The notes below the pieces were generated by a model. The model was not told the origin of the DNA. It made no database searches and saw nothing but the letters and a program-made list of their open reading frames with translations. A program made the position numbers and the translations under genes. A stretch of DNA of 64,000 nt from Actinomycetes bacterium (GTDB lineage Bacteria; Actinomycetota; Acidimicrobiia; Acidimicrobiales; Ilumatobacteraceae), in NCBI GenBank assembly GCA_027491335.1, contig JAIXWJ010000026.1:1-64000 (forward strand), in the 5' to 3' direction. Positions within the stretch are counted from its first letter, which is position 1; each line of letters begins with the position of its first letter. Below are positions 40,675 through 64,000 of this stretch, piece by piece.

Positions 40675-40746
40675 GATTCCCCCAGGGATGTTCCGGGCGG
40701 GCACCGTGGCGACCGCCAGCTCCAACTCGTACCTAACTCACTGGGG

Positions 40747-40782: not shown

Positions 40783-40788
40783 TCACGT

Positions 40789-41245: not shown

Positions 41246-42353
41246 CCAGATGAAGCGGGGCCTCGACGCCCCGATCTGTCTCACGTGGGAACTCACGTAC
41301 GCGTGCAATCTGCAGTGCGTGCACTGCCTGTCGTCCAGCGGCCAACGCGATGAGCGCGAATTGTCCACCGCCGAGGCCAAGCGCGTGCTCGACGAACTGC
41401 GCGACCTCCAGGTTTTCTACATCAACATCGGTGGCGGTGAACCCATGGTTCGCCGAGATTTCTTCGAACTGCTCGAGTACTCGGTGGGCAACGGGATCGG
41501 CGTGAAGTTCAGCACGAACGGCGCCTTCATCGACGCCGAGAAGGCCCGTCGCCTCGCGGCCATGGATTATCTCGACATTCAGATCAGCCTCGACGGCGTG
41601 GATGCCGCCACCAACGACGCGGTGCGGGGCGTCGGTTCGTACGACATGGCCCGTCGCGCCATGGACAATCTCGCCGCGGCGAACTTCGGACCTTTCAAGA
41701 TCTCGGTGGTCGTCACGCGCCACAACGTGTCGCAACTGGACCAGTTCAAGGCCCTCGCCGATTCGTACGGCGCGCAACTGCGCATCACGCGTCTGCGGCC
41801 GTCGGGTCGCGGTGCCGACACGTGGCACGAACTGCACCCCACCAACGGTCAACAGCGCGAGATCTACGACTGGCTGTTGAAGCACGGTGAGAACGTGCTC
41901 ACCGGCGATTCGTTCTTCCACCTCAACGCGTTCGGCGAATCATTGCCCGGATTGAACATGTGCGGTGCGGGGCGCGTGGTGTGCCTCATCGACCCCATCG
42001 GCGACGTGTACGCGTGCCCCTTCGTCATCCACGACGAGTTCAAGGCCGGCAACGTGCGCGACGAGGGCGGCTTCTCGCGCGTCTGGAAGCAGAGCGACCT
42101 CTTCTTGTCGTTGCGCGAGCCGCAGTCGGCCGGAGCCTGCGTGTCGTGCGGTTCCTACGACGCCTGCCAGGGCGGGTGCATGGCCGCGAAGTTCTTCACG
42201 GGCATCCCGCTCGACGGACCCGACCCCGAGTGCGTCGGCGGTGACGGCGAGCACGCGTTGTCGATCGTGATGCCGGGCTCGGCGCCGAAGCCGGCGATGG
42301 ATCACTCCAAGCCGGTCACTCTTTCGCGCAAGCCGGTCTCCGCGCGCCGATGA
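41223..42353 (+). CDS. mftC: Mycofactocin radical SAM maturase MftC
   Basis: 376-residue radical SAM/SPASM enzyme. The SAM cluster motif is YACNLQCVHC, the GGE motif IGGGEPM, and the SPASM region has Cys in NMCGAG, VVCLIDPIGDVYACP, CVSCGSYDACQGGC and PECVG for auxiliary Fe-S clusters. It catalyses oxidative decarboxylation of the MftA C-terminal Tyr and then Val-Tyr crosslinking. The GTG start overlaps mftB and its end overlaps the OYE gene (ATGA). Length is typical for MftC. mftD, mftE and mftF, needed for later steps, do not follow. Confidence 0.96.
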   Translation: MSASSLVDQMKRGLDAPICLTWELTYACNLQCVHCLSSSGQRDERELSTAEAKRVLDELRDLQVFYINIGGGEPMVRRDFFELLEYSVGNGIGVKFSTNGAFIDAEKARRLAAMDYLDIQISLDGVDAATNDAVRGVGSYDMARRAMDNLAAANFGPFKISVVVTRHNVSQLDQFKALADSYGAQLRITRLRPSGRGADTWHELHPTNGQQREIYDWLLKHGENVLTGDSFFHLNAFGESLPGLNMCGAGRVVCLIDPIGDVYACPFVIHDEFKAGNVRDEGGFSRVWKQSDLFLSLREPQSAGACVSCGSYDACQGGCMAAKFFTGIPLDGPDPECVGGDGEHALSIVMPGSAPKPAMDHSKPVTLSRKPVSARR

Positions 42354-44230: not shown

Positions 44231-44247
44231 ACATCGCCAAGGTTGCC

Positions 44248-44281
44248 CGGGGTCGTGGCAGTGTCGCCTGCCACGACCCCG
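44248..44281. terminator. Bidirectional hairpin between mft operon and giant gene
   Basis: A perfect 14-bp stem (left arm CGGGGTCGTGGCAG, loop TGTCGC) lies 17 nt after the OYE stop and 4 nt from the convergent giant gene's stop. No T-run is present, so it probably ends both transcripts with help from Rho. Confidence 0.8.
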
Positions 44282-44285
44282 TAGC

Positions 44286-47200
44286 TCATGGTCGGGTGTC
44301 CGACTCGATCTTGTCTTGCTCTTCGTCTTCATCCTCGTCGCGACGGCGAGCGATGATGAACCACCAACCGGCCACGGCGATCGCGCCGAACAACAGAGCG
44401 ATCACTCCGACGTAGATGAAGATCCTCCACATCGTGGACATTCCTCCATCACCATCCGACGAGTCGCCGGAGTTCTCGGAGCCGTCACCATCGTTCGGAT
44501 CGGGCGCGTCGCTCGGAGCCCAGTCCTCGGAGATGTCGAACTCGTATCGAACATCGGTGTCATCGCCGTAAGCGTCGGTGGCTTCGATGATCAATCGGTA
44601 CGAACCGGGCGCGAGATCGCGCGGAAGGATCGCCTTGGCATCGAGCGAACCATCGGGACCGATGACGACCCGACCCAACTCGATGATCGTCGAGCCATCA
44701 CTCGACTCCACGCGAACCGTCGCCTCCGAGCCGGGTCGCAAATCGCGTCCCGTCCACGCGAAGTTCACCTTTTTCGGCTGCCCCCGTCCGTCGAACAGCA
44801 GATCGGAAGCGAGACGGGGATCGGCCGGAATTCGAACGTTCTCGATCACCGTCGCTTCTCCGGGGGTCGCGCTGTTGTACGGAGTGATCCGATAGTTGTA
44901 CGTCTCGCCGAGAATCGCGGACATGTCGCTGAACGGACTTTCGACGGCGATCGAGATCACTTCCCACGTGCCATCGGGGCGTTGACGTTCGATGACGAAC
45001 GATGTCGGTGTCGGGCCGGAACTCGGCCGTTCCCAACGGATGTCGAGACCTCCGTCGACACCGCGACCGAACGTTGGCGGCGGGATCGCGCCCGGCGGAG
45101 TCGGTGACACCGCATCGATCGGGTTCCACGTCGCGGTGACATCGAACGACGAGGTGGTTTCCACCGTCTGCCCGTAGACGTCGGTGGCGATCAAGCGAAC
45201 GACGTAGCGACCCGGAGCCAGATCTCGGGGGATCCGAATGGTCGAAGCGAGACGTCCGTTCGAGGGCACCGATGGATTGCTCAGCGTCGAGAGAACGGTT
45301 CCATCCGACGTCTCGAGAACGATCCTCGCCCGGGATCGCGGACTCAAGTCCTTGGCCCCGACGGTGAATCGCGTCGTCGTCGGCTCACCCGAGGCACCGA
45401 GACGCACCGAGATCGTCGGGTTCGGGTTGGCCGGCACGCGAGCGTTGGTGACCAACACCGACTCACCGGCGAGCAATCCGTTGTACGGGGTGATGCGGTA
45501 GGTGTAAGTGTTGCCCAATGTGGCGTTCGAGTCGACCACCGAGGTCCCGGTGGTCACGGAAACGATCTCCCAGGTGCCATTCGGACGTTGACGTTCGACC
45601 ACGTAGGCGGTGGCAGTCGCTCCGCTGGAGGCCGGAGACCACAGAATCTGCAGTCCGGCCACCACGGGCACGAATCGCGAATCGATCACGGCCGCCGGAT
45701 TCGTCGGGGGGAACACCGGGCGTTCCGGGGTGAGCGACGTGGACTGCCATTCGCTGTCACCGATCACCGTGTACGCCTGCACACGGAACCGATACGTGAC
45801 ACCGAACGTGAGTCCGTCGAAAGTCAACAGCGTCGAACCGACCAAGCCGTCGTCGTTGGTCACGACGGCCATCCGATTCAATCGCTGCTCGGCGACAGTG
45901 CCTCGGGCCGATCGTTCGGAGTCGGACTCTTGGATCGAAAGACCCTCGAAGGGGTCGGTCGCGATCGGATCAGGACCGAGCTGCACGGTGGAGCCCCATG
46001 TGAGACCTCCATCGGTGGAGGTTTGGATTCGATAACCCGCGACGGCGGCCCCACCATCATCGGTCGGAGGCACCCACGCCACCGCTGCCGTCGCCGTCGA
46101 TGACGTCGGCGTGGCCTCGACGGTGGTCGCAGCCACCGAGAGCGGCGCTCGCGGCGGAGCGACCGGGGCCGCGGTCACCCACGTGCTCGCCGCGCCGGTC
46201 CCCGCCACGTTTCGAGCGGTCACTCGGAAGACGTACGCGACGCCGTTGGTGAGTCCGGTGATCACCGTCGCCGTGCTCGGTGCGGTGACCGTTCCGACCG
46301 ACCGCCATGCGACACCACCGTTGGCCGACGACTCGACGACGTAGTCGACGATTCCCGCTCCACCGTTGCTCGACGGCGCGGTCCAACTCAACGAGATCTG
46401 ACGATTACCCGCAACCGGAGTCAGCGCGGTCGGTGCCGACGGCGTGCCCGACGGCGTTGCCGTGGCGGTGGTCGACGCCGTTCCGGTGCCAACGATGTTG
46501 ATCGCGCGCACCCGCACGCCGTAGGAGGTCCCGTTGACGAGACCCGACACCGTCGCCACCGTCGTCGTGGTGGTGACGCCCGCAATCCACGTGCTGCCGT
46601 CCGTCGTCGTCTCGACGACGTACGACGTGACCACGGAGCCGCCGCTGCTCACCGGCGCCAACCACGACACGGTGATCGACGAATCGGAGATCACCGTGGT
46701 CACGTTCTGAGGTGCCGACGGAGTGGTTGCCGGTGTGGCATTCACGGTCGCCGAGGCCGCGCCATCACCGGCCGCGTTCGTCGCCACGATGCGGAAGGAA
46801 TACGCCGTACCGTTCACGAGGCCACCGGAGGTGTACGACAGTGAGGGCGTGGTGTCGATGCGTACCCATGCGCCACCGTTCACCGGAGCTCGTTCGATCG
46901 CGTACGAGATGATCGCCGAGCCGCCGTTGTCGATCGGGGCGGTCCACGAGAGAGCCACCTGACCATTGGAGGCAATGGCGCTCAGCGTGACGGGCGAGCC
47001 GGGTAGGGCTCGCGGAGTCACGTTCACCGTCGACGCGGTTCCACGTCCGCCCGCGGTGATGGGTACGACCCTGACGATCGACTGCGTTCCGTTCACGAGA
47101 CCGGTCACGACGGCGTTGGTTCCCGTCACGGTGCGCTCGGTTCCGAACGTCTGACCACCATCGTTGGAGACCGCGACGCCGTAGCCCGAGACCGCGGAGC

Positions 47201-50200
47201 CACCGTTGTTGGTCGGCGCCGACCACGTCACCACTGCTTGTCCGTCACCCGCCACGGCATTCAAACCGCCGACGGCCCCCGATGTCGAGAACGGCGTCGC
47301 CATCACGGAACGGGTTGCCACACCGGTACCAGCGGCGTTCACCGCGCTCACGTGGAACGCGTAGGAAGTGCCATTGACGAGACCGGTGACGACGTGTGTC
47401 AACGACGTCGTGGTCGTTTCGACCGTCCATGTCGTGCCACCATCGGTGGACGACTCCACGATGTACGCGGTCACCGTCGCACCGCCGTTCGACGCGGGCG
47501 CCGACCATGCGAGAGATGCCTGGCCGTTACCCGGTGTCACCGAGAGGTCGAGAGGTGTCGTGGCCACAGTGCGGGGTGTGGCCGACGCCGGAGCACTCTC
47601 GGGACCCGTGCCGGCGCCGTTGTTCGCGCTGACCCTGAACGAAACGGGCACGCCGTTCGTGAGGCCGGTCGCGAGATACGACGTGACGGCCGTGCCCGTA
47701 CCCGAGGTGATGATCGACCAATTGGTCCCGTCGAACGATTGCGACACCACGTAGCCGGTCACCGGGGTGCCACCGGAGACAACCGGGGCGTTCCACGACA
47801 GTGCCACCTGACCGTTGCCGGGAGTTGCCACGAGGTTGGTGGGCAAACCGGCGAGAGCGCCGACGCTCGGAGTCGCGATGACGGACGTGGTGTACGCCCC
47901 GGATCCCGCGGCGTTGACCGCGGCGACTCGCACGTGCACCGGCACACCGTTCGCCAGACCCGTGAGAACGGCACTCGATGCGGGCGAACCCGAACTCGCC
48001 GTGGTCCACACGTTGCCGTCGGACGAGGTCTGCACGATGTACGACGTCACCGGCAGGCCTCCCGAGTTGCCGGGAGCGGACCACGTCATGGACAACAAAC
48101 CGTTACCCGACAGGATCGTGAGACCCACCGGCGTTCCGGGAACACCGGCCGGCGTCACGACGGCCGCCGACGACGGAGCGCTCGTGCCCGCCGCGTTCTG
48201 GGCCGTCACGCGAACCAGATGGGTGACGCCGTTGGTGAGCGACGACAAGGTGTGGGGGGACGTCGCCGAGGTCGACACCACGATCCAGGTCGATCCACCA
48301 TCCACCGAGGTCTCGACCGTGTAACCAACGACCGACGCGCCGTTGGTCGACGCCGGGGCCGACCAACTGACGGTCGCCGAGGCGTTGCCACCGAGGACCG
48401 AGAGCGACTGCGGCGCGGTGGACGGAGCCGCCGGCGTGAAGGACTCACTGGCCACCGATTCCGCGCCCACGCCGAACGACGTGATGGCCGCGACCTTGAC
48501 GAGAAGTGGCGTGCCATTGACGAGACCCGCGATGGAGTGGCTGGTGGCCGAGGATCCCGTGTTCGCCACCAACGTGGTGAAGGACGAGCCACCGTTGCTC
48601 GAGACGAGAATGCGATAACCAGTGATCGAACTTCCACCGTCGGAAACGGGGGCCGTCCACGACAACACCGCCGACCGCGAACCGGTCACGACCGTCGGCG
48701 CCGTGGGAGCCGCGGCGCCACCACGTGGCGTCACCGCGACACCGGTGGATGCCGCTCCGGTGCCAACGGCACTCAACGGCACGACGCGCAGGAGGTACGT
48801 CTGACCATTGTTCAGCGACGTGACCGTGGTCGTGGTCGCCGTCGATCCGGTGTCCGACACCAGAGTCGTCCACGTCGTGCCGTTCGCCGACTGCTCGATG
48901 CGATAGCCGGTGATCACCGAGCCACCGTTCGACGCCGGAGCGATCCACGACAACACCGCCGACGCGTCGCCAGCGATGGCCGACAGCGAAGTCGCGGCCC
49001 CCGATGTGGTGGCCGGCGTCGCCGATGCGTTGGCGCTGGCGACCCCCGCGAACGAACGGCTGAGCGCCGTCACGCGGAACGAGTACGCCGTGCCATTGGT
49101 CAGCCCGGACACCGATGCACTGAGCACTGGTGCACCGCTGTCGGCGACCACGGTCGTCCATGTCGTTGCGTCGGTCGACGATTCGACGCGGTAACCGGTG
49201 ATCGTGCGACCACCCGCATCACTCGGCGCCGACCACGACAACGCGACATTGCGGTCACCCGCGACGGCCACGACGTTCTGCGGTGCGGACGGGGTTCCGA
49301 GCGGGATGGCCATTGCCTGGCTGCTCGACGAACCCACCGAGGCGCCCGTGAGGACGCTCACGCGATAGAGGTACGTCGAGCCGTTCACCAGACCGGTGTC
49401 GGTGTACGACAACGGCGACGCGGCAACGTCCACCAGAGTGGAGTACGCCGAACCGTTCACCGAACGCTCGATGCGGTAGCCGGTGGTGCCGACGACCACG
49501 GGGTCGGTCCACGAGAGAGTGGCCGACGCATCGCCGGAGATCGCCGTGATGGCATTGGGCGCGGCCGCGAGAGCCACCGCGGAGGTCGGCGCGCTCGCCG
49601 ACCCCACCGATGCCGAGGTGATGGCCGAGACCCTCACGTACGTTGTGGCGCCACCAACGACACCCGAGATCAGTGCTCGGGTGACCGCCGAACCGGTGTC
49701 GGCGATGCGCGTGCTCCAGACGAGGCCGTCGTTCGAGGTTTCGATGCGGTAGCCCATCACCGGCAGGCCACCCGACGAAGCGGGAGCCGTCCAATCGACG
49801 AGTAGTTCGCCCGATCCGGGCGTGAGGTTCACCGCACTCGGTGCGCTCGGGTCGTCGAATGGCACTCCCGACACGACGTCACTCATCACACCCTGACCCG
49901 CACCGGTGAGTGCGGCGACCTTCACGTAGCGACGAGAACCGTTCACGAGTCCGACGTAGCTGTAGGTGCGGCTCACCGAGTTGGTGTTCGCCACCAACGT
50001 CGTCCACGTCGCGCCATCGGCGCTCGTGAAAATGCGGTATCCCGTGATCGAACGACCACCCGTGATCGAGGGAGCGGACCATGCCAGATCCAACCGTGCG
50101 TTACCAGCGCTGACCGAGACGGTGCCCGGTGCGCCGGCGATCGTGAATGGCGTCGCCGACATCGTGTTGCTCGCGATCGAAGCACCCGCGACGTTCACGG

Positions 50201-53200
50201 CCGAGACGCGGAACTGATACGAGGTTCCGTTGGTGAGTCCGGTGACGATGTAGCGCAGACCCGGGTTGCCCGTCGACGACGTCAACGTCATCCAACCGGA
50301 ACCGTCGTTCGACTCGACGCGGTAACCGATGATCGGTGCCCCACCGTCGCCGGTGGGTGCCGACCACTCGAGGGCCACCGCCGAGTCTCCCGCCGCGGCG
50401 GCGACGAGGGTCGGATCGGTCGGAACGTTCACGGGGGTGGTGGTCGCCGGAGCGCTCGGTGTGCTCTCGCCCACCGCGTTGATCGCCACGACTCGGACCG
50501 AAACCGGCACGCCGTTCGAAACTCCCGTGATGACCGCGGACGTCGTCGTTCCCGACACCGTCATCGCCGTCGACCACGTGGCGCCGCCATTCGACTGCTC
50601 GATTCGATACTGCGCGATGGTGCGACCACCGGTGGACGACGGAGCGGTCCACGACACCGACACCTGACTGTCGCCCGGCAGGAGCGTGACTCCCGTCGCT
50701 GCCGACGGCACGGTGGCCGGCGAGACCGAGACCGATCCGGTCGCAACGCTCGCACCAACCACGTTCACGGCCGACACACGGAACTGGTACGAGACTCCAT
50801 TGGTCAGACCGCTCACGTTGTGCGACGGCGAAGTCACACCGGTGGCGATGGGCGCCCACGTGGAGCCGGTCAATTGTTCGACGGTGTACGACAAGATGGG
50901 CGCGCCACCATTCGACATTGGGGCGTCCCACACGAGGGCGACCGCCGAGTCGGAGCCCACCGCGATGAGGGCGCGCGGAACCGCCGGGACACCCGCGGGG
51001 AGACCCGCGACCGGAGCGCCGAGGACACTCGCTCCCACCCCGTTCGATGCACTCATTCTGAAGAGGTACATCGTGCCGTTCACCAATCCGGTGATGGTGG
51101 TGGAGGTCGCCGACGAAGCGATCCCCGTGGCGGCCGGCACCCAGTTGATGCCGTCGATCGAACGGTCGATCGAGTAGCCGATCACGGGCGAACCACCGTT
51201 GGACGATGGAGCGTTCCAATTGATCGTCACCTGCGCGTTGCCACCGACGACCGAGGTCACGATCGGAGACTGTGGCACCGTGGCCGGCGTGCTCTGAATC
51301 GTCGTGCTCGGCGAGCCGACACCAATCGTGTTGATGGCACTCGCACGGAACGTGTAGGTCGTGCCATTGGTCAGTCCGTTGACTGCGACCGCGGGAACGG
51401 CGCTGTTCGAGTTGGTCACCGCGACGACGAAGTTGATTCCATCGGTCGATATCTCGACGCGGTATCCGACGATGGAGTTGCCTCCATCGTTCGTGGGTGC
51501 CGTGAAGGTGAGAACCACCGAACCGTCACCGGCGTTCGCGTTGAGCGCCGTCGGGGCACCGGGGAGACCGGCGGGGATCACCGACGCCGGCGCCGACGAG
51601 GCGCCGATGCCATTCGGATTGATGGCCCGCACACGGAACAGATACGACGAACCGTTCGTGAGTCCGACGACGTTGCGCGTGGTCGACGTCGACGCACTGT
51701 CGGCCACGATCACCGACCATGTCGTGCCGTTGTCCGCCGACTGCTCGATGCGATAACCCGTGATGGACGCCCCACCGGAGGAGTTCGGCGCCGTCCACTC
51801 CAGGTTGGCGCCCCCGTTCGCGGCGGTCGCCGTCAACGAGGTCGGAGCGTTCGGCGCACGGCTCGGGGTCACGGAAGCACTCGACGTGGCGCCTCCGAGT
51901 CCGGCGGCGTTCACACCGGCCACTCGGAACGTGTACGCCGTTCCATTGACGAGACCGGTCACGGTGTGAGTCGTGAGCGGATTCGACGTCGTGACGACCG
52001 ATGTCCAAGTGGATCCATCCGTCGTCGATTCGATCGAGTAACCGATCACCGGAGAACCATTGTCACCGGCGGCCGACCACGAGAGGTTGACGGCACCATC
52101 GCCGGCCACGGCCGTGACGGTGGCGGGAGCCGTGGGACCGGCGAACGGGACGACGGTGGTCACCGAGCTCGTGGCACCGACGCCCGATGCGTTCAGCGCA
52201 CTGACACGGAAGGACACCGACACGCCGTTGGCGAGGCCCGAGGCGTTGAAGGTCGTCGCGGTGACGGCGGTGTCGGCCACGACGATCGTCCAGGTGGCAC
52301 CTCCATCGGTCGACTTTTCGATGCGGTAACCGGTGACGGCGTTGCCACCATTGGACGAAGGTGCGGTCCACGTGAGCGAAGCAGTGGTGCTTCCGGCCGT
52401 CGCGACGAGATTGCGCGGCGCCGACGGCCCCGCGTACGGCGTGCCCGAGGCCGACTCCGACACGAGACCCGTACCCGATCCGTTCACCGCGGCGACACGG
52501 AAGTAATAGAGCGTTCCATTGACCAGCCCGGCGATGTTGGCCGTTGTCGCGGACGATCCCGTGTTCGAGATCGCGGGAGTCCACGAGATTCCATCGACCG
52601 ACCGCTCGACCGTGTAGCCGCTCGGCTGCAACGCGCCGGTCGGCGCGATCCACGACAGCACCACCGACGCATTGCTCGGCGTGACGACCAGACCAGTCGG
52701 CTGACCAGCCACCGTCGTCGGCACCGCCGACACGATGGCACTCGCCGATCCCGCTCCCACCGTGTTCAACGCGTACACGCGGAACGCGTACGACTGACCG
52801 TCCACCAGACCGGTGGCCGTGTACGTCGTCGCGGTGCTCGCGGTGTTGCCGGCGACGGTGGTCCACGTGGTTCCACCGTCGGCCGACGATTCGACGCGAT
52901 ATCCACTGACGGCGTTGCCACCATTGGACGAAGGAGCGATCCACGACAGCTGCACCTGCGAGGCACCGCCGGTGGCGGTAAACGAACGAGGTGCCGTGGG
53001 CGTGCCCGCGGGTGTCGCCGACGAGGTCGCACTCGCGACGCCCGGGCCGCTCGTGTTTCGCGCGGACACACGGAACGTGTGCGCGATGCCGTTGGCGAGA
53101 CCACTCACCACGAAGACGGTCGACGCCGAACCGGTGTCGGTCGCGACATCGGTCCACGACGTGCCGTTGTTGGTCGACGACTCGATGCGATAACCGGTGA

Positions 53201-56200: not shown

Positions 56201-59200
56201 TGCCGACACCGGCGGCGTTCACCGCGAAGACACGGAACAGAATGGGCGCACCATTGGTGAGTCCGGTGACCGTCGCCTGACGCGCACCACTCGTCGAAGC
56301 GAAGGCCGTCGACCATGTGATGCCGCCGTCGAACGACTGATCGACCTTGTAATCGGTGATCGTTGCTCCACCATCGCTGGCCGGAGCATTCCATCCGAGA
56401 GCAACTTGTCCGTCGCCAGGTGTCGGAAGGAGAGCCGTCGGCGCCGACGGGGTCGTGAACGGAGTGACGGCAACCGGCAACGTCGCGGCACCGGTTCCAC
56501 CCGCGGTGATGGCCGAAACGCGGAAGTAGTACGTGGTCCCGTTGACGAGACCCGACTGCACCGATGCGGGAACGGCGGAACCCGTGTTGGCGGTGGCCAC
56601 GGACCAGTTGTTGGAATCGATCGAACGCTCGATCATGTATCCGATCACCGGGAGACCACCGGAGTCCGCCGGGGGCAGCCACGTCAGAACCGCTTGAGCA
56701 TTGGCCGCCAGACCAGCCAACGCCACGGGCGAGGCCGCGGGCGAACTCGGGATGGCCGTGGCGATGTTCGACGTGGCGCCACTTCCGGCCGACGTGACGG
56801 CGCTCACGCGGAACAGAACCGTCACGCCGTTGTCGAGCCCGGTCAACGTGTGAGCCGTCGCCGTCGTGCCCGTGTTGGCCACGGCGTCGGTCCACGTGGT
56901 GCCGCCGTCGACGGACTGCTCGATGCGGTAACCCGTGATGGGGTTACCGCCGGTCGAGACCGGAGCCGTCCAAGTCAGTTGCGCGCGGCCGCTCGAAGCG
57001 GCGGCCACAAGGTTCGAGGGTGCGCTCGCTGCCCCGTAGGGCGTTCCGGTGACCACATCGCTCGTCGCTCCCGGTCCAGCGGCGGTCAATGCCGTGATGC
57101 GGAATCCGTGGAGCTGGCCCGCCGTGAGGCCGAGAACGGCGAACGACGGCGTCGACGAGAACGTGTTGGAAGCCGCGGTGACGAAATCACCGGAGGCTCC
57201 GAGTCGATACTCCACTCGGTAACCGAGAACCGGGTAACCACCGGTCGTGGCCGGCGGCGTCCACGTGAGGTTCACGCTGTTCAGTCGACCTGCCGCCGCG
57301 AGTGCCGTCGGCGCACCGACGGTTTGCGTCGGCGTGTCGAAGATGACCGCGGGGCTCGGAATGCCGGTCGACGAGACCGAGAGAACGGGCGTCACTCGGA
57401 ATGCGTACGTCGTGCCCGTCGACAGTCCGCTCACGACGTGAGTGAGCAGAGTCGTCGTGGCACCGGCGGGCGCGCCGCTGGCCGCGGTGGCCGACGTGAA
57501 CACCGCCGACGACAGACCGCAATCCACCGAGCAATACTCGACTCGATATCCGACCACCGCGTTGCCACTGGTGGGCACGGGTGCGAGCCAGTTGAGCGAC
57601 ACGCTCGTGGTCGACGCCGTGGAGTTCAGCAACTGCACGGCAACCTGGGCGCTCGCCACCGGGGTCGCGGCCACGATGACCGCCGGACCCGTCGTGTTCG
57701 AGCCGCCATAGACCGCCCGAACACGGAACGTGTAGGTGACTCCGTTGGTGAGACCGGTCGCCGTGTAGAACGGCGCCGACATCGCGGTGGTCGTACCCGC
57801 GGGAGCGCCGGCCACCGCGGTGAGTGTCGTGTAGGTCCCGCTCGAAACGGTGCAGGTACCGGTGCAACGGTCGACGAGGTAGCCCGCCACGGTCTGCCCC
57901 GCGGTCATTGGCATCTGGTCCCAGGTGAGACCCACCTGAGCGTTGCCCACCACGGCCATCAGGGACGTGACGGTGTTCGCCGGACCACCCGAAGCCGTCG
58001 AGGGTTCGCTCGTACCCGCCGGCGTGATGGCGGTGACTCGATACACGAATGACGCTCCGGGCGTCATCACGCTGCTCGCATCGACACAAGCGGTCGACGA
58101 CGTGCACGAGAGTCCGGCGATCGGCGCGGCGACGAACGGACTCGACGACGTGGTGGTGCCGAGGGTCGACCACGTGGTGCCGTTGTCGGCACTGCGTTCC
58201 AATCGGTATCCGGTGACCGTGAGCCCACCGGAACTCACCGGTGCACCCCATCCGAGCGACACTCGCTCGGTGCCACCGGTGACCGTGAGTGCGGTTGGTG
58301 AGGTCGGCGCCGCCGCGGTTCCGTACGGACCAGCGGACAAACTCGGCGCACCCTCGCCCATGGCGGTGAGTGCGGTCACTCGGAACGAATAGCCCTGACC
58401 CAACGCCGACGCGAGGATGCTGTTCAGGTTGAACGAGGTCTCCGTCGAACCGGTGTCGGCGATCAACGTGGTCCATGCGGCACCGGTGCTCACCGCGATG
58501 GTGGACGACGGGAGCACGTACTCGATCTTGTATCCCGTGATGGGGTAACCACCCGTGTCCGCCGGAGCGGTCCAGGACAACGTGAGATTTCTTCCATTCA
58601 CGGCCACCGACGGAGCGGTGAGTCCGCGCGTCGTGATGCCCGACGCCGCGTAGTGACTCGCGACCTGGCTCGCGGAGAGAGCCTTGTTGTAGACCGCGAC
58701 CTCGCTCATCGAACCATTGAAGAAGGACCCGTCGGAGGTGTAGTTGTTGCCGATCATCAACTCGCCGACGGCGGTGACGAGCGGAGAACCCGACTGCGTC
58801 ACGAAGACGGAGTTCTGAAGTACGCCGTTCACGAAGAGTCTGGCCCCGCCGGTCGTCTGATCGAAGACCGCCACGACGTGCGACCACGCGCCGCCCACGA
58901 TGACGTTCGGCTGGGTCATCACGAATTGACTGCCCCCCGACGAATGCATGGCGAACGACAACTGAGTGCCGTTCAAGTACATCCCGTAGTTGCGCGACGT
59001 CGAACCCGCGTTTCCGCGGGCGATGATCGTCTGCCATCTGTTGGGAGCCCCGGCTTGAGGACGGATCCAAGCCTCGAGCGACAACGACGAAGCGATGCGC
59101 AGATCGGCGGTGCTCAACGTGGTCAACGCACCAGCCAGGTTGGCCGGTGTGGTGGGGGCCACGGTCGGGTAGGCCGCGGCACTGGCCGCGCTGCCACTGA

Positions 59201-62200
59201 ACGTGGCCGAGCCGCTCGTACCTCCGAACGGTGACGCGCCGCCGAAGACCACTCCCGTCGAACCCACGGCCAGTGATCGGGCGGTACCCGTCGCATCCGT
59301 TGGCGTCGAGCCGGCCGCGTTGTTGAAGCGGTACCAAAGAACCGGAGCGTCCGCGGTGACGGCCGCGCCGTAGTTGTCGGCGTTCGACGGGTTGGCCGTG
59401 ACGGCAACCGCGTTTCCGCTCGGAGAACCGGGCAACGTGTAGGGAACGGCGATTGCCACCGCACCCGAGCCGTTGCCGTTGGCATTGATCGCCGACACTC
59501 GGAATGAAGTGAGAGTGCCGTTCACGACTCCCGCGGTTCCGCTCGCCACGACACACGACGTGATGGTGGTGCAGGTGAATCCGGTGATCGCCCCCGTCAC
59601 GAACGGGGTCGTGGACGTCGTGGTGCCGAGGAGGCTGTACGTGCCGCCGCTCGAGCAGTTCGAGTTGCAGAGCTCGACGCGGTAACCCGTGATCGCCGAA
59701 CCGCCATTGCTGGTGGGCGCGGTCCATCCGAGCGTCACCGAGCCGGTGTTCGCCGAGGTCGCCGACATGTTCACCGGGGCCCCGGGAGCTCCACCCGGCG
59801 TGGAGGTGGCAATGCTGCCGGTGCCGGCGCCCGCCAAGGTGACCGCGCGCACGCGGAAGTAGTGGACGGTTCCGTTCGTGAGACCGGTGACGACCAACGA
59901 AGTGCTCGTCGACGGAACGGTGGACGAAACCGTCGTGAAGCCGGTGGTGGCCACAGCGGTACAGGCCGCCGCACTGGTGGTGCAGAAGTCCACGATGTAG
60001 GAGGAAATCGAGGTGCCGCCATTGTTCGACGGAGCCGTCCAGTTGACGGTCACGGATGCGTCGCCGGCGGTCGCCGAGATCGTCGCCACCGCGCCCGAGA
60101 CCGTGAACGGACGTGCGAGCGTCGTCGCGTAAGCGCCGACTCCGGCGGTGTTGGTGTTGGCCGCGACTCGATAGGTGTACGTGGTGCCGTTGATCGGAGT
60201 CGAATCGGTGAACGTGAGCGTGGTGCTCGCGATGGTGCTACTGAGCGTGGTCCAGTTGGTGCCATCGCTCGTGCGCTGCAACGTGTACGTGTACGACGCC
60301 GGAGCGGGTGAGCCGAGGCTCGACGGAATCGCCCACCTCAACACGACCGAGGCGTTGCCGGGTGTGGCACTGAAATTCGTCGGAGCCGAAGCGGTGCTGG
60401 CCACCGCGGCCTGCGGAACCGAAACCGTCACGAGACTTCCCGACACCGGTCGCGCATCGACGAGAGCGGTCGTCGAGTTGACGGCGGTGATGGCGGTGAC
60501 CGCGAACGTCGACGTCGACACTCCGGCCGACGGCGAAACCGTCACGGACAGTCCGCCCGAGTAAACGCTGTACAACAAGCAGTGCGCCGTGGCCGAGGGA
60601 CAGGTGGTCGTCACCGCGGTCGTCGACGTGCACGCCGTCTGACCGCTGTTGCACCGTTCGATGGTGTATCCGATGATCGGGCTACCTCCGTCGTTGGACG
60701 GAGCGGTCCACGAGAGCGTGGCGGTACCCGTGTTGTCGATGGTGGCGACGAGGCCCCGGGGAGCTCCCGGTGCGGTCACCGGTGTCGCCGTGGTCGTCGC
60801 GAAGGCTCCGACACCGGCAGAGGTGGCGGCGGCCACGCGGAATGAATAGTTGGTTCCGAGCACGAGACCGGACACGTTCACGGTGAGTCCGCTCGGACGA
60901 GCGACATCGACCCATGTCGCTCCATCCGTGGAACGTTGGACGACGTAGTTGGTGATGACGCTTCCACCATTGTTGACCGGGGCCAACCAAGTGAGGACCA
61001 CTCCCCCATTGGCGTCGACCGTGGCTCCCAAGGATGCCGGCGCGGAGGCGGTGCTGATCGGCAGAGCGGTCGTGACGGCCGCGTTGTTGACCGAGTTCGC
61101 CGTGATCGCCGTGACACGGAAGTAATAAGCGGTGCCATTCAGAAGACCCGTCGCGTTGTACGACGTGACGATGCCGGTGTTCGCCGCGATGGTGCTCCAC
61201 GTCGTGTTGTTCGTCGACTGCTCGACTCGGTATCCGACCACCGCGGAACCACCGTTGCTCGCCGGGGCCGACCACGTCAGGGTCGCCTGAGTGCTGCCAG
61301 CGGTCGCCGACAGACCCACGGGAGCCAATGCCGCTCCGAACGGGACGACGTCGGTGGTGGAGACGACTCCGTATCCGAGCGCGTTCTGTGCCGACACTCG
61401 ATACGTGTAGTTGACGCCGTTCACGAGCGAGGTGTCCACCCACGAAGTGGTGTTCACCGAGTTGACGAGCATGGACCAGGTCGCACCTCGATCCGATGAA
61501 CGCTCGACTCGGTAACCGGTGAGCGCATACCCGCCGTTGTCGGAGGGAGCGGACCACGTCACGCTCGCCCGTCCGTCTCCGGGCACCGCATCGAGAAGTG
61601 TTGGCGCCGTGGGGGTCGAGCCCGGAGTCGCGTTGATCGCGTTGACGTTCGTCGCGGTACCGACACCGAAGGGCGTGATCGCGGCCACCGTGTAGAAGTA
61701 CGTGGTGCCGTTGGCGAGGCCACCAACCGTGTAGGTGGTGCCCGTCGAATTGGTGGAGGGAACGATCGTGGAGAACTGGGCCGTGTTGTTGCACCACGTG
61801 GTGGATGCGTTGTAGACGCACTGCGAGATTTGATAGGCCGTCACCGGCGCGCCGCCCGGATCCTGAGGGGACTGCCATGACAGCGCCACCGAGCCATTAC
61901 CGCGCACGGCGGAAAGGGCTGTCGGTGCTGTTGCCGCTGTCATCGGCGTTGTGGATGCGGCGGCACTCACAACGCCCAAACCGCCTGGGCTGGCGGCCGG
62001 ACCTCCGTTCACATACGCCGTCACCCTGAAGTAGTAGAGAACTCCATTGGTGAGGTTCGTGATCGTCGCACTGGTGGTGGACGTGTACGAATCGATCGTC
62101 CACGAAGTGCCGTTCACACTGCGCTCGATTTGGTAGCCGGTGATCGTGAATCCACTGGCGTTCGTGGGCGCCGTCCATGAAAGAGATGCTTGACGGTTGC

Positions 62201-64000
62201 CCCGAACGGCCAGAACGTTGGTGGGCGCACCAACTTGCGTGAACGGAGTCGCGAACACGGGACTGGACGTCGAGTCGCCCACCGCGTTCACCGCGCGCAC
62301 TTCCCAGAAGTAACTGGTGCCGTTGGTTAGCCCGGTGACCCCGTTGGTGTCGATGAATGAGAACGTGCTGGCGGTCACCGTGGTCAGCAAGGTTCCGTTT
62401 CGGAACACCTTGTACCCGGTGATGGCCGAGCCGCCGTTGCTGGCCGGCGCCGACCAAGAGATCGTCGCCCTCTTGTCGCCACCGGTCACCGCGACCGAGA
62501 GAGGCGACAGTGACACCGTGGCGGGTGTGGCGGGGCTGAAGGTTCCCCACTCACCGATACCAGCCGACGTGAGGGCGGCCATACGGAACGTGTACGTCGT
62601 ACCGTTCGTGAGTCCGCGCACCACGTACGAGGTTCCCGAAGCATCGAGGGTGAGGGTGGTCCAATTGGTGCCATCGACGGAGTACTCCATGCGATACGAA
62701 AGCACCGAGAAGCCGCCGTTGCTGACGGGGGCGGCCCACGTCAGCGTGACTCGTCCGTCCGACGCGACGGCCGATGTGGGTCGGACAGCGGTTGGCACCG
62801 ACATCGGAGTCGCGTTCACCACGGTCGGTGAAGCCGCGCCCGCCACGTTGGATGGCGTGATGCGCACGTAGTACGACGTACCGACGGTGAGAGCCGAAGT
62901 GTTCCCCGCGGTGCCCGTGATGGTCACACTGGTGACACCCGCGCCCACCGTCGTCGCCGACGTCGACATGCTGCTCGACGTCGATTGTCCGGCCCACGTA
63001 CCCCATGCGGCCACGAAGGTCCCGCCAACCGTGGCGATCTCGACCCTGTATCCGGTGGGCAGAGGCGCGGTCGGTGTGCGCCACGACACGACGATCGAAC
63101 TCGCCGTCGTGGAGACCGTCGCGCCACTCACCATGTTGGGCACCGTGGACGTCGTCGGCCACGAGGGTGCCACGATCGAGGTGGTGGAGGAGGCTCCCGC
63201 GCCCTCGGATGTCAGCGGCGTCACGCGGTACGTGTACACCGTCCCCGGTGTGAGACCGGTGATCACGGTCGTCAGCAAGGGCACGCCGACCGACGAACTT
63301 CCGAGGTTGGGTGACACCGTCGTCCACGAAGTGCCACCATTGTCGCTCTGCTCGAGCATGTAGCCATAAATCGTTTGACCACCGTTGCTGGTGGGCGCCG
63401 CCCAGTTGAGCGTCACCTGTCCACTCGCGGTCGGAACTCCGAACGTCGGGGTCGTGGCCACCGAAGCCGTCAGACTCTGCGGTGCGGATGGGACCGTCGC
63501 CGGGGTGCCGAGCACCATCGCTCCGTTGATACTGCAGGACGTAGCGGAGGTGTCGGCGAGCGTTTCATCGCACGCACCGGTCACCGCGCTCACGCGAGCC
63601 TGATACTGCGTGCCGTTGGTGAGGCCCGAGAAGGTGTACGTGTTCGTGCTCGGTGACCCGGTGTTGCGCACATACGTGGTCCATGTGCAACTCGCGAAGG
63701 AGCACAAGTCGAGTTGATAACCGGCGACCGGGAGTCCACCGTTCGACGACGGAGCGTTCCACGACACCGTCATGAACCCGTCTCCGGTGACCGAACGAAC
63801 GAGCGACGGTGCGGAGGCGGGGCCGAAGGGCATCGCCGAAACGATGCTCGACTGACCATCACCTTGCGTGGTGGTGGGAGTGATCCGGAATCGGTAGGTG
63901 GTGCCGTTGACCAATCCGCGCACGTCGAGCGACCTCGCGGTGGTCGTGGCAACCGGGAACCACAACGAGCCGAACACGTTCTGCTCGATTCGGTAGCTCG
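44286..64000 (-). CDS. Giant FN3-repeat surface protein, 5' end beyond window
   Basis: An uninterrupted reverse-strand frame of at least 6,570 codons that continues past the right edge (SYRIEQN precedes the first in-window GTG at 63977), so the N-terminus and any signal peptide are unseen. From the edge: about 61 fibronectin type III modules of about 95 residues, one LamG-like domain at residues about 1520-1785, a duplicated C-terminal FN3 plus beta-sandwich unit, an Asp/Gly/Ser linker, one TM helix (about 6517-6543) and an acidic tail (RRRDEDEDEEQDK). Cys pairs occur only in residues before about 2150. No LPXTG motif is present. The layout suggests a membrane-anchored adhesin or matrix protein more than 200 nm long. 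Residue numbers count from 63977. Confidence 0.93.
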   Translation of the reverse strand, partial: SYRIEQNVFGSLWFPVATTTARSLDVRGLVNGTTYRFRITPTTTQGDGQSSIVSAMPFGPASAPSLVRSVTGDGFMTVSWNAPSSNGGLPVAGYQLDLCSFASCTWTTYVRNTGSPSTNTYTFSGLTNGTQYQARVSAVTGACDETLADTSATSCSINGAMVLGTPATVPSAPQSLTASVATTPTFGVPTASGQVTLNWAAPTSNGGQTIYGYMLEQSDNGGTSWTTVSPNLGSSSVGVPLLTTVITGLTPGTVYTYRVTPLTSEGAGASSTTSIVAPSWPTTSTVPNMVSGATVSTTASSIVVSWRTPTAPLPTGYRVEIATVGGTFVAAWGTWAGQSTSSSMSTSATTVGAGVTSVTITGTAGNTSALTVGTSYYVRITPSNVAGAASPTVVNATPMSVPTAVRPTSAVASDGRVTLTWAAPVSNGGFSVLSYRMEYSVDGTNWTTLTLDASGTSYVVRGLTNGTTYTFRMAALTSAGIGEWGTFSPATPATVSLSPLSVAVTGGDKRATISWSAPASNGGSAITGYKVFRNGTLLTTVTASTFSFIDTNGVTGLTNGTSYFWEVRAVNAVGDSTSSPVFATPFTQVGAPTNVLAVRGNRQASLSWTAPTNASGFTITGYQIERSVNGTSWTIDSYTSTTSATITNLTNGVLYYFRVTAYVNGGPAASPGGLGVVSAAASTTPMTAATAPTALSAVRGNGSVALSWQSPQDPGGAPVTAYQISQCVYNASTTWCNNTAQFSTIVPSTNSTGTTYTVGGLANGTTYFYTVAAITPFGVGTATNVNAINATPGSTPTAPTLLDAVPGDGRASVTWSAPSDNGGYALTGYRVERSSDRGATWSMLVNSVNTTSWVDTSLVNGVNYTYRVSAQNALGYGVVSTTDVVPFGAALAPVGLSATAGSTQATLTWSAPASNGGSAVVGYRVEQSTNNTTWSTIAANTGIVTSYNATGLLNGTAYYFRVTAITANSVNNAAVTTALPISTASAPASLGATVDANGGVVLTWLAPVNNGGSVITNYVVQRSTDGATWVDVARPSGLTVNVSGLVLGTNYSFRVAAATSAGVGAFATTTATPVTAPGAPRGLVATIDNTGTATLSWTAPSNDGGSPIIGYTIERCNSGQTACTSTTAVTTTCPSATAHCLLYSVYSGGLSVTVSPSAGVSTSTFAVTAITAVNSTTALVDARPVSGSLVTVSVPQAAVASTASAPTNFSATPGNASVVLRWAIPSSLGSPAPASYTYTLQRTSDGTNWTTLSSTIASTTLTFTDSTPINGTTYTYRVAANTNTAGVGAYATTLARPFTVSGAVATISATAGDASVTVNWTAPSNNGGTSISSYIVDFCTTSAAACTAVATTGFTTVSSTVPSTSTSLVVTGLTNGTVHYFRVRAVTLAGAGTGSIATSTPGGAPGAPVNMSATSANTGSVTLGWTAPTSNGGSAITGYRVELCNSNCSSGGTYSLLGTTTSTTPFVTGAITGFTCTTITSCVVASGTAGVVNGTLTSFRVSAINANGNGSGAVAIAVPYTLPGSPSGNAVAVTANPSNADNYGAAVTADAPVLWYRFNNAAGSTPTDATGTARSLAVGSTGVVFGGASPFGGTSGSATFSGSAASAAAYPTVAPTTPANLAGALTTLSTADLRIASSLSLEAWIRPQAGAPNRWQTIIARGNAGSTSRNYGMYLNGTQLSFAMHSSGGSQFVMTQPNVIVGGAWSHVVAVFDQTTGGARLFVNGVLQNSVFVTQSGSPLVTAVGELMIGNNYTSDGSFFNGSMSEVAVYNKALSASQVASHYAASGITTRGLTAPSVAVNGRNLTLSWTAPADTGGYPITGYKIEYVLPSSTIAVSTGAAWTTLIADTGSTETSFNLNSILASALGQGYSFRVTALTAMGEGAPSLSAGPYGTAAAPTSPTALTVTGGTERVSLGWGAPVSSGGLTVTGYRLERSADNGTTWSTLGTTTSSSPFVAAPIAGLSCTSSTACVDASSVMTPGASFVYRVTAITPAGTSEPSTASGGPANTVTSLMAVVGNAQVGLTWDQMPMTAGQTVAGYLVDRCTGTCTVSSGTYTTLTAVAGAPAGTTTAMSAPFYTATGLTNGVTYTFRVRAVYGGSNTTGPAVIVAATPVASAQVAVQLLNSTASTTSVSLNWLAPVPTSGNAVVGYRVEYCSVDCGLSSAVFTSATAASGAPAGATTTLLTHVVSGLSTGTTYAFRVTPVLSVSSTGIPSPAVIFDTPTQTVGAPTALAAAGRLNSVNLTWTPPATTGGYPVLGYRVEYRLGASGDFVTAASNTFSSTPSFAVLGLTAGQLHGFRITALTAAGPGATSDVVTGTPYGAASAPSNLVAAASSGRAQLTWTAPVSTGGNPITGYRIEQSVDGGTTWTDAVANTGTTATAHTLTGLDNGVTVLFRVSAVTSAGSGATSNIATAIPSSPAASPVALAGLAANAQAVLTWLPPADSGGLPVIGYMIERSIDSNNWSVATANTGSAVPASVQSGLVNGTTYYFRVSAITAGGTGAATLPVAVTPFTTPSAPTALLPTPGDGQVALGWNAPASDGGATITDYKVDQSFDGGITWSTAFASTSGARQATVTGLTNGAPILFRVFAVNAAGVGTPTAAISTSAYTLPEAPSALTAVGANASALLSWVAPLNTNGSPVSGYRVERSIDGGLTWTTAIANTGNSGTNVVVNNVTNGVSYSFRVSAINAAGAGSTSNTAAATPLTTPSAPTRLTAISGDAVVALTWETPVNDGGSAIASYTIERSSNGGVTWTSIASGVTTTSFGDSALINGTTYLYRVSAVNDAGTGSSSAGVAAVPAAKASAPTSLVATSGSSAVILTWTAPSSTGGTPVTGYMVEVSEDGGDTWTTAIVDTQTSSTYASVNGLAPGQPYTLRVSAINSAGVGAVSSTTTGTPIVTSTVVLSGVAGNGSANLSWTAPTDVTQTGYVVERSTDGTTWTSAMSNPSANSTSGTATGLTNGVLYVFRVQVLTSAGSASTYSNYLSVLPQGSPSTPTALSGTAGDAKVTLRWTAPSSNGGAAISGYKVEYSSDGTNWTVATASTGNQATAYTVTGLTNATLYSFRVSAVNVVGSSSASDVTTSTPFTTPASPASLLAAAGTSQVVLTWTAPTFNGGNTITSYTVQQSSDGGFTWTTLSSSVTALTYTATDLTNGSTYAFRVAATNAAGMGVFIQPATATPYVAPEAPTEVTATAGDTSVSLSWTAPANVPSTSIIGYRIERAPATGSVWSVVASNTASSLTSYTVTGLVNGTEYRFRVSALISAGAGAASGAVNATPFGVPSSPSGLTAVAGDSQITLTWAAPTSDGGRAVTAYVIEKSIDGGATFAVDSIVSASSLTTTVGGLNNGTAYVFRVLATNLAGNSGPSTTAASIPFTAPSAPINLQATSGTNEVTLAWSAPNSTGGANLIGYRIERSSNGGTSWTTVVANTGTTATAFTVGNLTAGALQTFRVAAVTTGGFGAYSANVGATAAGLAIAPTGLTATAGNTQVALAWTAPAATGGSSISAYVVERSADGGATWSIVSSSVASTSFTVTGLTNAVSYSFRVSAVNASGAGIASLPATAVPFGVPGQPTALQSIASNGQVVLLWAAPVSDGGSSITGYRIESSTNNGTSWTDVATDTGSASTVFVVSGLANGIAHTFRVSARNTSGPGVASATSSATPAGTPTAPRSFTATGGASQVQLSWIAPSSNGGNAVSGYRVESSADGGTTWTTVAGNTASTATTYTATGLVDGQSYAFRVYALNTVGAGSASAIVSAVPTTVAGQPTGLVVTPSNASVVLSWIAPTGALQPSGYTVERSVDGISWTPAISNTGSSATTANIAGLVNGTLYYFRVAAVNGSGTGLVSESASGTPYAGPSAPRNLVATAGSTTASLTWTAPSSNGGNAVTGYRIEKSTDGGATWTIVVADTAVTATTFNASGLANGVSVSFRVSALNASGVGATSSVTTVVPFAGPTAPATVTAVAGDGAVNLSWSAAGDNGSPVIGYSIESTTDGSTWTSVVTTSNPLTTHTVTGLVNGTAYTFRVAGVNAAGLGGATSSASVTPSRAPNAPTSLTATAANGGANLEWTAPNSSGGASITGYRIEQSADNGTTWSVIVADSASTSTTRNVVGLTNGSSYLFRVRAINPNGIGASSAPASVIPAGLPGAPTALNANAGDGSVVLTFTAPTNDGGNSIVGYRVEISTDGINFVVAVTNSNSAVPAVAVNGLTNGTTYTFRASAINTIGVGSPSTTIQSTPATVPQSPIVTSVVGGNAQVTINWNAPSSNGGSPVIGYSIDRSIDGINWVPAATGIASSATSTTITGLVNGTMYLFRMSASNGVGASVLGAPVAGLPAGVPAVPRALIAVGSDSAVALVWDAPMSNGGAPILSYTVEQLTGSTWAPIATGVTSPSHNVSGLTNGVSYQFRVSAVNVVGASVATGSVSVSPATVPSAATGVTLLPGDSQVSVSWTAPSSTGGRTIAQYRIEQSNGGATWSTAMTVSGTTTSAVITGVSNGVPVSVRVVAINAVGESTPSAPATTTPVNVPTDPTLVAAAAGDSAVALEWSAPTGDGGAPIIGYRVESNDGSGWMTLTSSTGNPGLRYIVTGLTNGTSYQFRVSAVNVAGASIASNTMSATPFTIAGAPGTVSVSAGNARLDLAWSAPSITGGRSITGYRIFTSADGATWTTLVANTNSVSRTYSYVGLVNGSRRYVKVAALTGAGQGVMSDVVSGVPFDDPSAPSAVNLTPGSGELLVDWTAPASSGGLPVMGYRIETSNDGLVWSTRIADTGSAVTRALISGVVGGATTYVRVSAITSASVGSASAPTSAVALAAAPNAITAISGDASATLSWTDPVVVGTTGYRIERSVNGSAYSTLVDVAASPLSYTDTGLVNGSTYLYRVSVLTGASVGSSSSQAMAIPLGTPSAPQNVVAVAGDRNVALSWSAPSDAGGRTITGYRVESSTDATTWTTVVADSGAPVLSASVSGLTNGTAYSFRVTALSRSFAGVASANASATPATTSGAATSLSAIAGDASAVLSWIAPASNGGSVITGYRIEQSANGTTWTTLVSDTGSTATTTTVTSLNNGQTYLLRVVPLSAVGTGAASTGVAVTPRGGAAAPTAPTVVTGSRSAVLSWTAPVSDGGSSITGYRILVSSNGGSSFTTLVANTGSSATSHSIAGLVNGTPLLVKVAAITSFGVGAESVASESFTPAAPSTAPQSLSVLGGNASATVSWSAPASTNGASVVGYTVETSVDGGSTWIVVSTSATSPHTLSSLTNGVTHLVRVTAQNAAGTSAPSSAAVVTPAGVPGTPVGLTILSGNGLLSMTWSAPGNSGGLPVTSYIVQTSSDGNVWTTASSGSPASSAVLTGLANGVPVHVRVAAVNAAGSGAYTTSVIATPSVGALAGLPTNLVATPGNGQVALSWNAPVVSGGTPVTGYVVSQSFDGTNWSIITSGTGTAVTSYLATGLTNGVPVSFRVSANNGAGTGPESAPASATPRTVATTPLDLSVTPGNGQASLAWSAPASNGGATVTAYIVESSTDGGTTWTVETTTTSLTHVVTGLVNGTSYAFHVSAVNAAGTGVATRSVMATPFSTSGAVGGLNAVAGDGQAVVTWSAPTNNGGSAVSGYGVAVSNDGGQTFGTERTVTGTNAVVTGLVNGTQSIVRVVPITAGGRGTASTVNVTPRALPGSPVTLSAIASNGQVALSWTAPIDNGGSAIISYAIERAPVNGGAWVRIDTTPSLSYTSGGLVNGTAYSFRIVATNAAGDGAASATVNATPATTPSAPQNVTTVISDSSITVSWLAPVSSGGSVVTSYVVETTTDGSTWIAGVTTTTTVATVSGLVNGTSYGVRVRAINIVGTGTASTTATATPSGTPSAPTALTPVAGNRQISLSWTAPSSNGGAGIVDYVVESSANGGVAWRSVGTVTAPSTATVITGLTNGVAYVFRVTARNVAGTGAASTWVTAAPVAPPRAPLSVAATTVEATPTSSTATAAVAWVPPTDDGGAAVAGYRIQTSTDGGLTWGSTVQLGPDPIATDPFEGLSIQESDSERSARGTVAEQRLNRMAVVTNDDGLVGSTLLTFDGLTFGVTYRFRVQAYTVIGDSEWQSTSLTPERPVFPPTNPAAVIDSRFVPVVAGLQILWSPASSGATATAYVVERQRPNGTWEIVSVTTGTSVVDSNATLGNTYTYRITPYNGLLAGESVLVTNARVPANPNPTISVRLGASGEPTTTRFTVGAKDLSPRSRARIVLETSDGTVLSTLSNPSVPSNGRLASTIRIPRDLAPGRYVVRLIATDVYGQTVETTSSFDVTATWNPIDAVSPTPPGAIPPPTFGRGVDGGLDIRWERPSSGPTPTSFVIERQRPDGTWEVISIAVESPFSDMSAILGETYNYRITPYNSATPGEATVIENVRIPADPRLASDLLFDGRGQPKKVNFAWTGRDLRPGSEATVRVESSDGSTIIELGRVVIGPDGSLDAKAILPRDLAPGSYRLIIEATDAYGDDTDVRYEFDISEDWAPSDAPDPNDGDGSENSGDSSDGDGGMSTMWRIFIYVGVIALLFGAIAVAGWWFIIARRRDEDEDEEQDKIESDTRP
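44500..45720 (-). repeat. Duplicated FN3 plus beta-sandwich unit next to the membrane
   Basis: Two tandem units, about 45110-45720 and 44500-45108. Each has an FN3-like domain (VERQRPNGTWEIVS / IERQRPDGTWEVIS) followed by a beta-sandwich ending IPRDLAPGRYVVRLIATDVY or LPRDLAPGSYRLIIEATDAY. The pattern differs from the main array and forms a distinct stalk base. Confidence 0.8.
45110..64000 (-). repeat. Tandem FN3 module array (about 60 in this span)
   Basis: Each module of about 285 bp encodes SAPTxLxAxxGDGxVxLxW, then APxSNGGxxITGYRIExS, then GLTNGTxYxFRVSAVNAAGxG. Modules are strongly diverged from one another; none of those compared by eye are identical, so the array is old or under diversifying or recoded constraint. 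Spacer lengths vary only slightly, except for an insertion in the 59th module (ESDSERSARGTVAEQRLNRM). Confidence 0.9.
58625..59420 (-). other. LamG/concanavalin A-like domain inside the FN3 array
   Basis: Residues about 1520-1785 of the giant protein. Hallmarks are LWYRFNNAAGSTPTDATG, the strand SLSLEAWIRPQ, RNYGMYLNG, HVVAVFDQTTGGARLFVNG, then MIGNNYTSDGSFFNGSMSEV and AVYNKALSASQVASHY. Such LamG_3-type domains bind glycans or proteins, so this is the best candidate ligand-binding site in the visible part. Confidence 0.85.

Follow-up and report, generated by a model that had tools for sequence, protein, structure and literature searches.

A minus-strand reading frame that runs free of stops from 44286 to 63998, as far as the edge of the window, raises the questions of whether it belongs to a real gene, what its product would do and how it came to lie beside the mycofactocin system. 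The window is the whole stretch of 64,000 nucleotides analysed (C8:1-64000), part of a contig of 93,175 bases from a 2.52-Mb metagenome-assembled genome (MAG) that is 94.57% complete; this source genome is designated G000 in all genome comparisons. The organism, an uncultured actinobacterium, is taken to belong to Acidimicrobiia. We consider it probable, with moderate confidence, that the gene at this locus is intact and under selection, encodes a surface protein of the fibrillar-adhesin-like type and is carried as accessory cargo that is exchanged between genera.

Extent and integrity of the frame

When the frame was read past 64000, through the window and the next 29 kb, the upstream stop was located at 76196 with no stop internal to the frame. 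The first start codons are GTG at 76172 followed by ATG at 76166, the latter being the first ATG and the likely start. The product from this ATG is 10,626 residues with a mass of about 1.07 MDa, and the gene accounts for 1.3% of the assembly. The initial annotation had claimed a giant FN3/LamG protein of more than 6,560 residues. The domain assignment was borne out by Pfam and by a model built from the protein's own modules, and the frame is open over the claimed length although the figure is an underestimate, the full protein being 1.6 times the visible length. The sequence right of 64000, to which the same annotation had pointed for the N-terminus, carries the frame to ATG 76166 with neither a stop nor a frameshift before the start, and the N-terminus encoded there is signal-like by eye.

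44286..64000, minus strand: portion of the giant gene that falls in the window, about codon 4056 to codon 10626 plus the stop; the likely ATG start lies outside the window

The GC content of the gene is 65.4% compared with 64.7% for the remainder of the contig. Misassembly of the array, a concern of the initial annotation, found no footing: the longest exact repeat within the gene is only 28 bp, and the array was found again in independent MAGs. An assembly artefact is therefore an unlikely source of the giant array.

The ratio dN/dS of the gene was 0.11-0.23 against G015 and G002 in seven segments (the first 354 residues of G002 lying outside the comparison), 0.09-0.23 wherever dS was unsaturated, and 0.05-0.29 in 400-codon windows; synonymous sites of the gene are saturated between G000 and both G003 and G189. 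As judged from these substitution patterns, the gene is under purifying selection along its length, and such selection is thus visible along some 10,000 codons of a giant gene. That the frame is instead an assembly collapse, a chimera or a pseudogene is extremely improbable. For this view it can be said that the MAG sequence is without long-read support, that short non-matching stretches occur at the contig ends of the G015 pieces, and that decay does occur in relatives, since a second N-terminal copy of the gene in one genome (G181 C118, L093) has a frame break near residues 657-690. Against it stand the shortness of the internal repeats, the agreement of module order among independently assembled MAGs, and dN/dS of about 0.1-0.23 along the gene. 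The gene is apparently real and intact.

Domain order and membrane anchor

The polypeptide begins with a polar leader of ~60 residues, a signal-like hydrophobic stretch ending in VLA and a low-complexity linker, followed by an FN3 module, a LamG domain, two FN3 modules, a linker, a further FN3 module, the second LamG domain and then FN3 modules to about residue 10,000, a run broken by the third LamG domain. Past residue ~10,000 are FN3-like and Ig-like domains, an acidic linker, one transmembrane (TM) segment and the tail. The signal-like N-terminus, recognized by eye and with an unusually long n-region of ~60 residues, is also present in G015 and G002 and, more distantly, in G003.

outside the window, minus strand: first LamG domain, about residues 262-470 (bounds inferred from FN3 on either side)
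outside the window, minus strand: second LamG domain, residues 896-1047 (Pfam; modelled fold)
58659..59120, minus strand: third LamG domain (Laminin_G_3), residues 5683-5836 (Pfam and own-module model)
46155..64000, minus strand: regular FN3 array with 57 of the 61 modules of the window (own HMM and Pfam)
44433..45989, minus strand: membrane-near stretch, residues 10060-10578, with beta domains of FN3-like and Ig-like type and an acidic linker (weak model)
44349..44432, minus strand: single C-terminal TM segment (translation by eye; helix in the AlphaFold model)
44289..44348, minus strand: tail RRRDEDEDEEQDKIESDTRP, basic then acidic (translation)
44245..44285, no strand assigned: hairpin with an uninterrupted 14-bp stem between two convergent genes (folding z -5.6 against shuffles)

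The own-module model identified 95 FN3 modules in the full protein and placed 61 starts inside the window, in agreement with the number of about 61 proposed at the outset; the remaining four modules of the window are weaker and lie between 46155 and 44.8 kb. Pfam fn3 gave 15, 22, 23 and 23 significant stretches (83) across four pieces of the protein, and of 91 matches to PF00041 genome-wide 85 fall in the giant frame (row count). Pairs of modules share a mean identity of 37% with a maximum of 58.5%, and adjacent pairs 38% with at most 49%. The protein has a repeat array of the kind that forms the stalk of fibrillar adhesin-like proteins, which would be rod-shaped.

Three stretches matched Laminin_G_3 of Pfam, one in the window and two upstream of it near the N-terminus, so that two of the three lie within the first ~1,050 of the 10,626 residues and the third is mid-chain. 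The model of the second domain had a mean pLDDT of 76, with both ends disordered and a core of about 75-95. Among the best 50 of 402 PDB matches an arabinanase with sugar-binding domain 4 came first, followed by other lectin-fold domains; a sequence profile also supports the assignment. Clostridial neurotoxin binding domains appeared among the Foldseek matches, but at 12-18% identity they have nothing beyond the jelly-roll lectin fold in common with the domain, and toxicity is not implied. The LamG domains probably bind glycans on particles or other cells.

All 40 cysteines have another cysteine within 20 residues, compared with a mean of 5.4 and a maximum of 18 of 40 in 2000 random draws. Taken as 20 pairs, with the pairing in orthologues our own from aligned residues, they are kept or lost whole and none is half-lost. 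The pairs kept among those aligned were 20 of 20 in G015, 18 of 18 in G002, 19 of 20 in G003, 10 of 11 in G189 and 14 of 18 in G109, with 2, 0, 3, 2 and 6 additional cysteines, respectively, at other aligned places. The close spacing and the retention or loss of whole pairs are fitting for disulfides of an exported protein.

The single TM segment and acidic tail of the initial annotation were read in the translation, with a helix at the TM in the AlphaFold model, although the model of this region is weak (mean pLDDT 62.5, pTM 0.36). By eye and by the model helix, the TM and charged tail provide the surface anchor expected of a fibrillar adhesin-like protein, and both are also present in G002 and, with another sequence, in G109. 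No LPxTG was found near the C-terminus, the defining motif of the sortase-anchored class, and the only two occurrences of LPxT[GAS], at residues 7616 and 9371, fall within FN3 modules of the array. A C-terminal fragment of the gene in G189 (C15; L088 2559-3758) ends by eye in a multi-helix hydrophobic region rather than a single TM, and this end was without a Pfam match; the fragment may be part of the gene represented by the half on C3, the middle being missing.

No shuffle of 200 was as stable as the hairpin at 44245..44285, and its stem is kept in G002 with one paired change (by eye). It is possibly a transcription terminator shared by both convergent genes.

Module order, location and probable exchange among relatives

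With an N-terminal alignment and a cut-off of E below 1e-80, the giant gene was detected in 4 of the 24 genus genomes and, over the whole family, in 9 of 221 (our count); the carriers belong to three genera, and many genomes of the set are incomplete; among genus genomes at least 90% complete it is present in 2 of 7. At 1e-10, 45 of the 221 family genomes match, mostly through single FN3-like stretches. At 1e-25, samples of the order and class gave 2 of 397 and 2 of 395 genomes, namely the source genome and G458 of another family. The frame in G458 has 3,147 residues, is still open where the stretch ends, and matches residues 726-3805 with 37-38% identity. Among the papers listed in searches of the open-access literature, which leaves out most subscription journals, none described the protein in its title or abstract.

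The orthologues lie in five contigs in G002, three in G015 and three in G109 (another genus), and those of G003 and G189 are cut by contig ends. Of the 10,626 residues, 9,652 are covered in G015 (84% identity), 9,996 in G002 (73%), 6,642 in G003 (about 61%), 6,868 in G189 (56%) and 9,726 in G109 (50%). Orthologous modules are therefore 50-84% identical, compared with ~37% between different modules within one protein. From residue 1 to ~7,700 the orthologues are without any gap of at least 25 residues, and after realignment with a gap cost favouring long gaps such gaps were absent from 12 of 14 segments. In G015, 66 residues are absent at residue 10062, and the C-terminal piece of G189 has gaps of 80 and 98 in an out-of-register stretch.

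When modules were placed singly, they were in increasing order for 35 of 35 and 30 of 30 in G002, for 23 of 23, 34 of 34 and 30 of 30 in G015, for 54 of 55 in G003 and for 39 of 40 in the N-terminal half of G189; a double step near module 36 reflects a weak module that the model overlooks in relatives, and another at the end of G015 corresponds to the 66 missing residues. Of the 49 modules of G109 that face modules 17-66 of G000, 46 matched the collinear one best (our count); in the N-terminal piece of G109 only 10 of 14 modules follow the order, the last of these out of place. Past module ~66 the register between genera was not resolvable: from module 66 to module 90 G109 takes 26 steps instead of 24, from module 67 to module 90 G189 takes 17 instead of 23, and only 58 of 78 and 14 of 23 modules, respectively, are in order in the pieces concerned. 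Since collinearity extends to module ~66 and register is lost beyond, order in these alignments is largely conserved across genera in the outer two thirds and not in the membrane-near third. Comparison of single modules between species and between genera, possible for this giant gene, sets a fixed outer arm apart from a variable stalk and makes constraints on repeat order in giant adhesin-like proteins directly testable. A further, tentative possibility is that the ~66 addressed, non-interchangeable modules, each retaining its identity at its position between genera and despite horizontal exchange, constitute an ordered scaffold or ruler with position-specific partners and with LamG at fixed stations, the membrane-near stalk being an adjustable spacer and the whole 32-kb gene a single-gene cargo inserted into core-gene gaps.

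The gene lies alone between the convergent OYE-1 and MftC genes and a PlsY-like gene. Convergence with a mycofactocin operon, as first annotated, was confirmed by the identity of the OYE-1 and MftC genes.

42350..44230, plus strand: mycofactocin-system FadH/OYE family oxidoreductase 1, left core flank (family match; in 22 of 24 genus genomes)
41223..42353, plus strand: mycofactocin radical SAM maturase MftC (family match)

In an ORF at 39673-40944 (plus strand) the match to the mycofactocin precursor MftA is confined to the last 20 residues, and the long N-terminal part is probably a mis-start.

OYE and PlsY share one contig in 15 of the 24 genus genomes (our count). The gap between them is empty or nearly so in four (71 bases in G004, 22 in G019, 16 in G001, and G023, with an apparently split OYE frame and hardly anything in the gap besides the rest of that frame). 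It holds a DNA methylase in nine (G003, G006, G007, G009, G014, G016, G017, G018 and G022), with sulfate-assimilation genes besides in G018 and G022, a frame of ~634 residues for a secreted-looking protein in one (G010, L138), and the giant gene in one, the source genome. Pfam was used for the G007 methylase and for two of the G018 genes, and the other contents were read by eye. In G002 both flanks are present on separate contigs. In this genus the gap seems to be a variable spot. Other species have it empty or filled with other genes, so that the giant gene seems to be tied to the mycofactocin genes by its site of insertion rather than by function.

In G003 the giant gene has another location, on C10. 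Misbinning of this contig is made less likely by the 9.7 kb upstream of the gene, parts of which are 90-95% identical to the sister species G007. No match to the giant N-terminus was found in G007 (97% complete), a contig of which may end near that place. Short DNA elements of ~75-170 bp at L046 624-756 and 8676-8850 recur at many places in G003, G007 and other genomes of the family.

A candidate partner gene upstream was rejected: this 258-residue ORF (contig 76526-77302, minus strand) is antisense to the plus-strand PlsY-like gene. Minus-strand ORFs of 301 and 275 residues further upstream have no Pfam match and are antisense to an OYE-like frame. Upstream of each of nine copies of the giant gene examined are one to four CCTCAA/TTGAGG boxes, two of them 115 bp apart in G000, G002 and G015, and three or four close together in G003, G189, G178 and one copy of G181. 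The boxes are perhaps a regulator site.

C8 about 76437-76560 (outside the window); L046 9545-9600; also L086, L092, L094, L055, L049 and L089: CCTCAA/TTGAGG box sites

The giant protein of G003 (genus g1) is 84.5% identical to that of G189 (genus g48), whereas ValS is 72% identical; within one genus, G003 and G000 share about 60% in the giant protein and 82% in ValS. For G003-G189 the giant gene gave pS 0.56 and dS 1.04, and ValS pS 0.72 and dS 2.36, which is near saturation. Between G000 and G002, dS was 0.34 for ValS, 0.32-0.60 for four flanking genes and about 0.9-1.35 in all windows of the giant gene. A low-dS tract between G000 and G015 (dS 0.17) spans residues 9601-10000. In a tree of residues 430-1390 with seven rows, that of G109 long-branched, the genus as one clade was rejected (AU p 1.3e-9), as was G000+G002 (p 0.005). 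In the ValS tree G003 with G189+G168 was rejected (p 1e-40) and G000+G015 was not (p 0.19). The clades tested were picked after the identities had been seen, and ValS is the one marker protein on which exchange rests; RpoB, sought as a second marker, was found in 7 of 12 genomes and in none of G003, G015 and G189.

Given the conflict of the giant gene with ValS in both tree and identity, transfer of the gene, or of alleles of it, between genera is the most likely explanation, and the comparison suggests exchange of the 32-kb gene in one piece. Movement between species of the source genus perhaps also occurred, a weaker case since G000+G015 is not rejected by ValS. That the gene is instead an old one, inherited vertically and lost many times, with a fixed order that reflects slow change, is improbable. 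It would account for the upstream flank of 2.0-2.6 kb shared at 77-78% DNA identity by G003 and G181, of two genera, which indicates that one location may be old, and for the distant homologue of G458, a genome of another family, with its 37-38% identity along some 3,100 residues. It is opposed by the AU tests, by the two chromosomal locations inside one genus and by the giant proteins of G003 and G189 being more alike than their ValS. Transfer remains the preferred explanation.

Proposed role and known systems

The features point to a mechanism in which export, surface display, rod shape, glycan binding and adhesion are all predicted from the sequence. The chain would be exported by way of a Sec-type N-terminal signal and stay fixed in the membrane through its C-terminal TM, the acidic tail remaining inside. 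The rise per FN3 module is about 3.3 nm, and ~95 FN3 beads would form a rod of some 0.3 micrometres, on which two of the LamG lectin-fold domains would sit towards the distal, N-terminal end and the third at mid-length. The protein would most likely serve attachment to particles or cells, with glycan-binding domains presented at a distance of a few hundred nanometres. The outer part, to about module 66, consists of individually distinct modules with order kept across genera, the membrane-near part differs in module number, and the gene behaves as accessory cargo, alone in a core-gene gap and most likely exchanged between genera. Adhesion fits this architecture.

It is rather unlikely that, instead of being an adhesin, the protein coats or shields the cell to keep off grazers, phage or predators, with LamG tethering neighbouring chains or the cell's own polysaccharide. 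The sheer length and the Ser/Thr-rich, lysine-poor composition (0.29% lysine) would suit a shield; three lectin-fold domains, two near the membrane-far end, would exceed its needs, and the gene is carried by only 4 of 24 genus genomes, or 2 of 7 with at least 90% completeness. An adhesin-like role is therefore preferred.

The repeat type of Ebh of Staphylococcus aureus differs from that of the giant protein. Ebh is a known system near the giant protein (as cited in PMC11573180), where giant bacterial genes are also described as strain-specific (Reva and Tummler, as cited there). Larger proteins exist, such as a 39,678-residue frame of Omnitrophota, according to PMC10066038.

With fibrillar adhesin-like proteins, as their features are listed in PMC8286594, the giant protein shares a single chain, domains of a putatively adhesive type towards the membrane-far N-terminus, a stalk of small beta domains and a C-terminal anchor; it differs in a TM anchor with charged tail in place of LPxTG and in its length of 10,626 residues. 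The words 'fn3' and 'laminin' are absent from the main text of that paper. Periscope proteins likewise place a tandem-domain rod between a functional end and an anchor and, according to PMC9704523, have highly identical repeats that expand and contract. The giant protein resembles them in that its membrane-near module number varies between genera, whereas its modules are not highly identical tandem repeats but share ~37% on average, with the outer order fixed.

Giant1-5 of Apilactobacillus kunkeei, as described in PMC12863079, are proteins of 3,000-8,000 residues encoded by five consecutive genes, with beta-solenoid domains in Giant1-3. Common to them and the giant protein are very large size, an extracellular location, predicted for the giant protein, and sequence exchange between two genera, likely in its case; these fructophilic lactic acid bacteria offer a precedent for giant surface genes exchanged between genera. 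In contrast, the actinobacterial case is one lone FN3/LamG gene in a core-gene gap. Overall, the protein is a large representative of a known architecture, in which a fixed module order and likely horizontal exchange can be traced with uncommon clarity.
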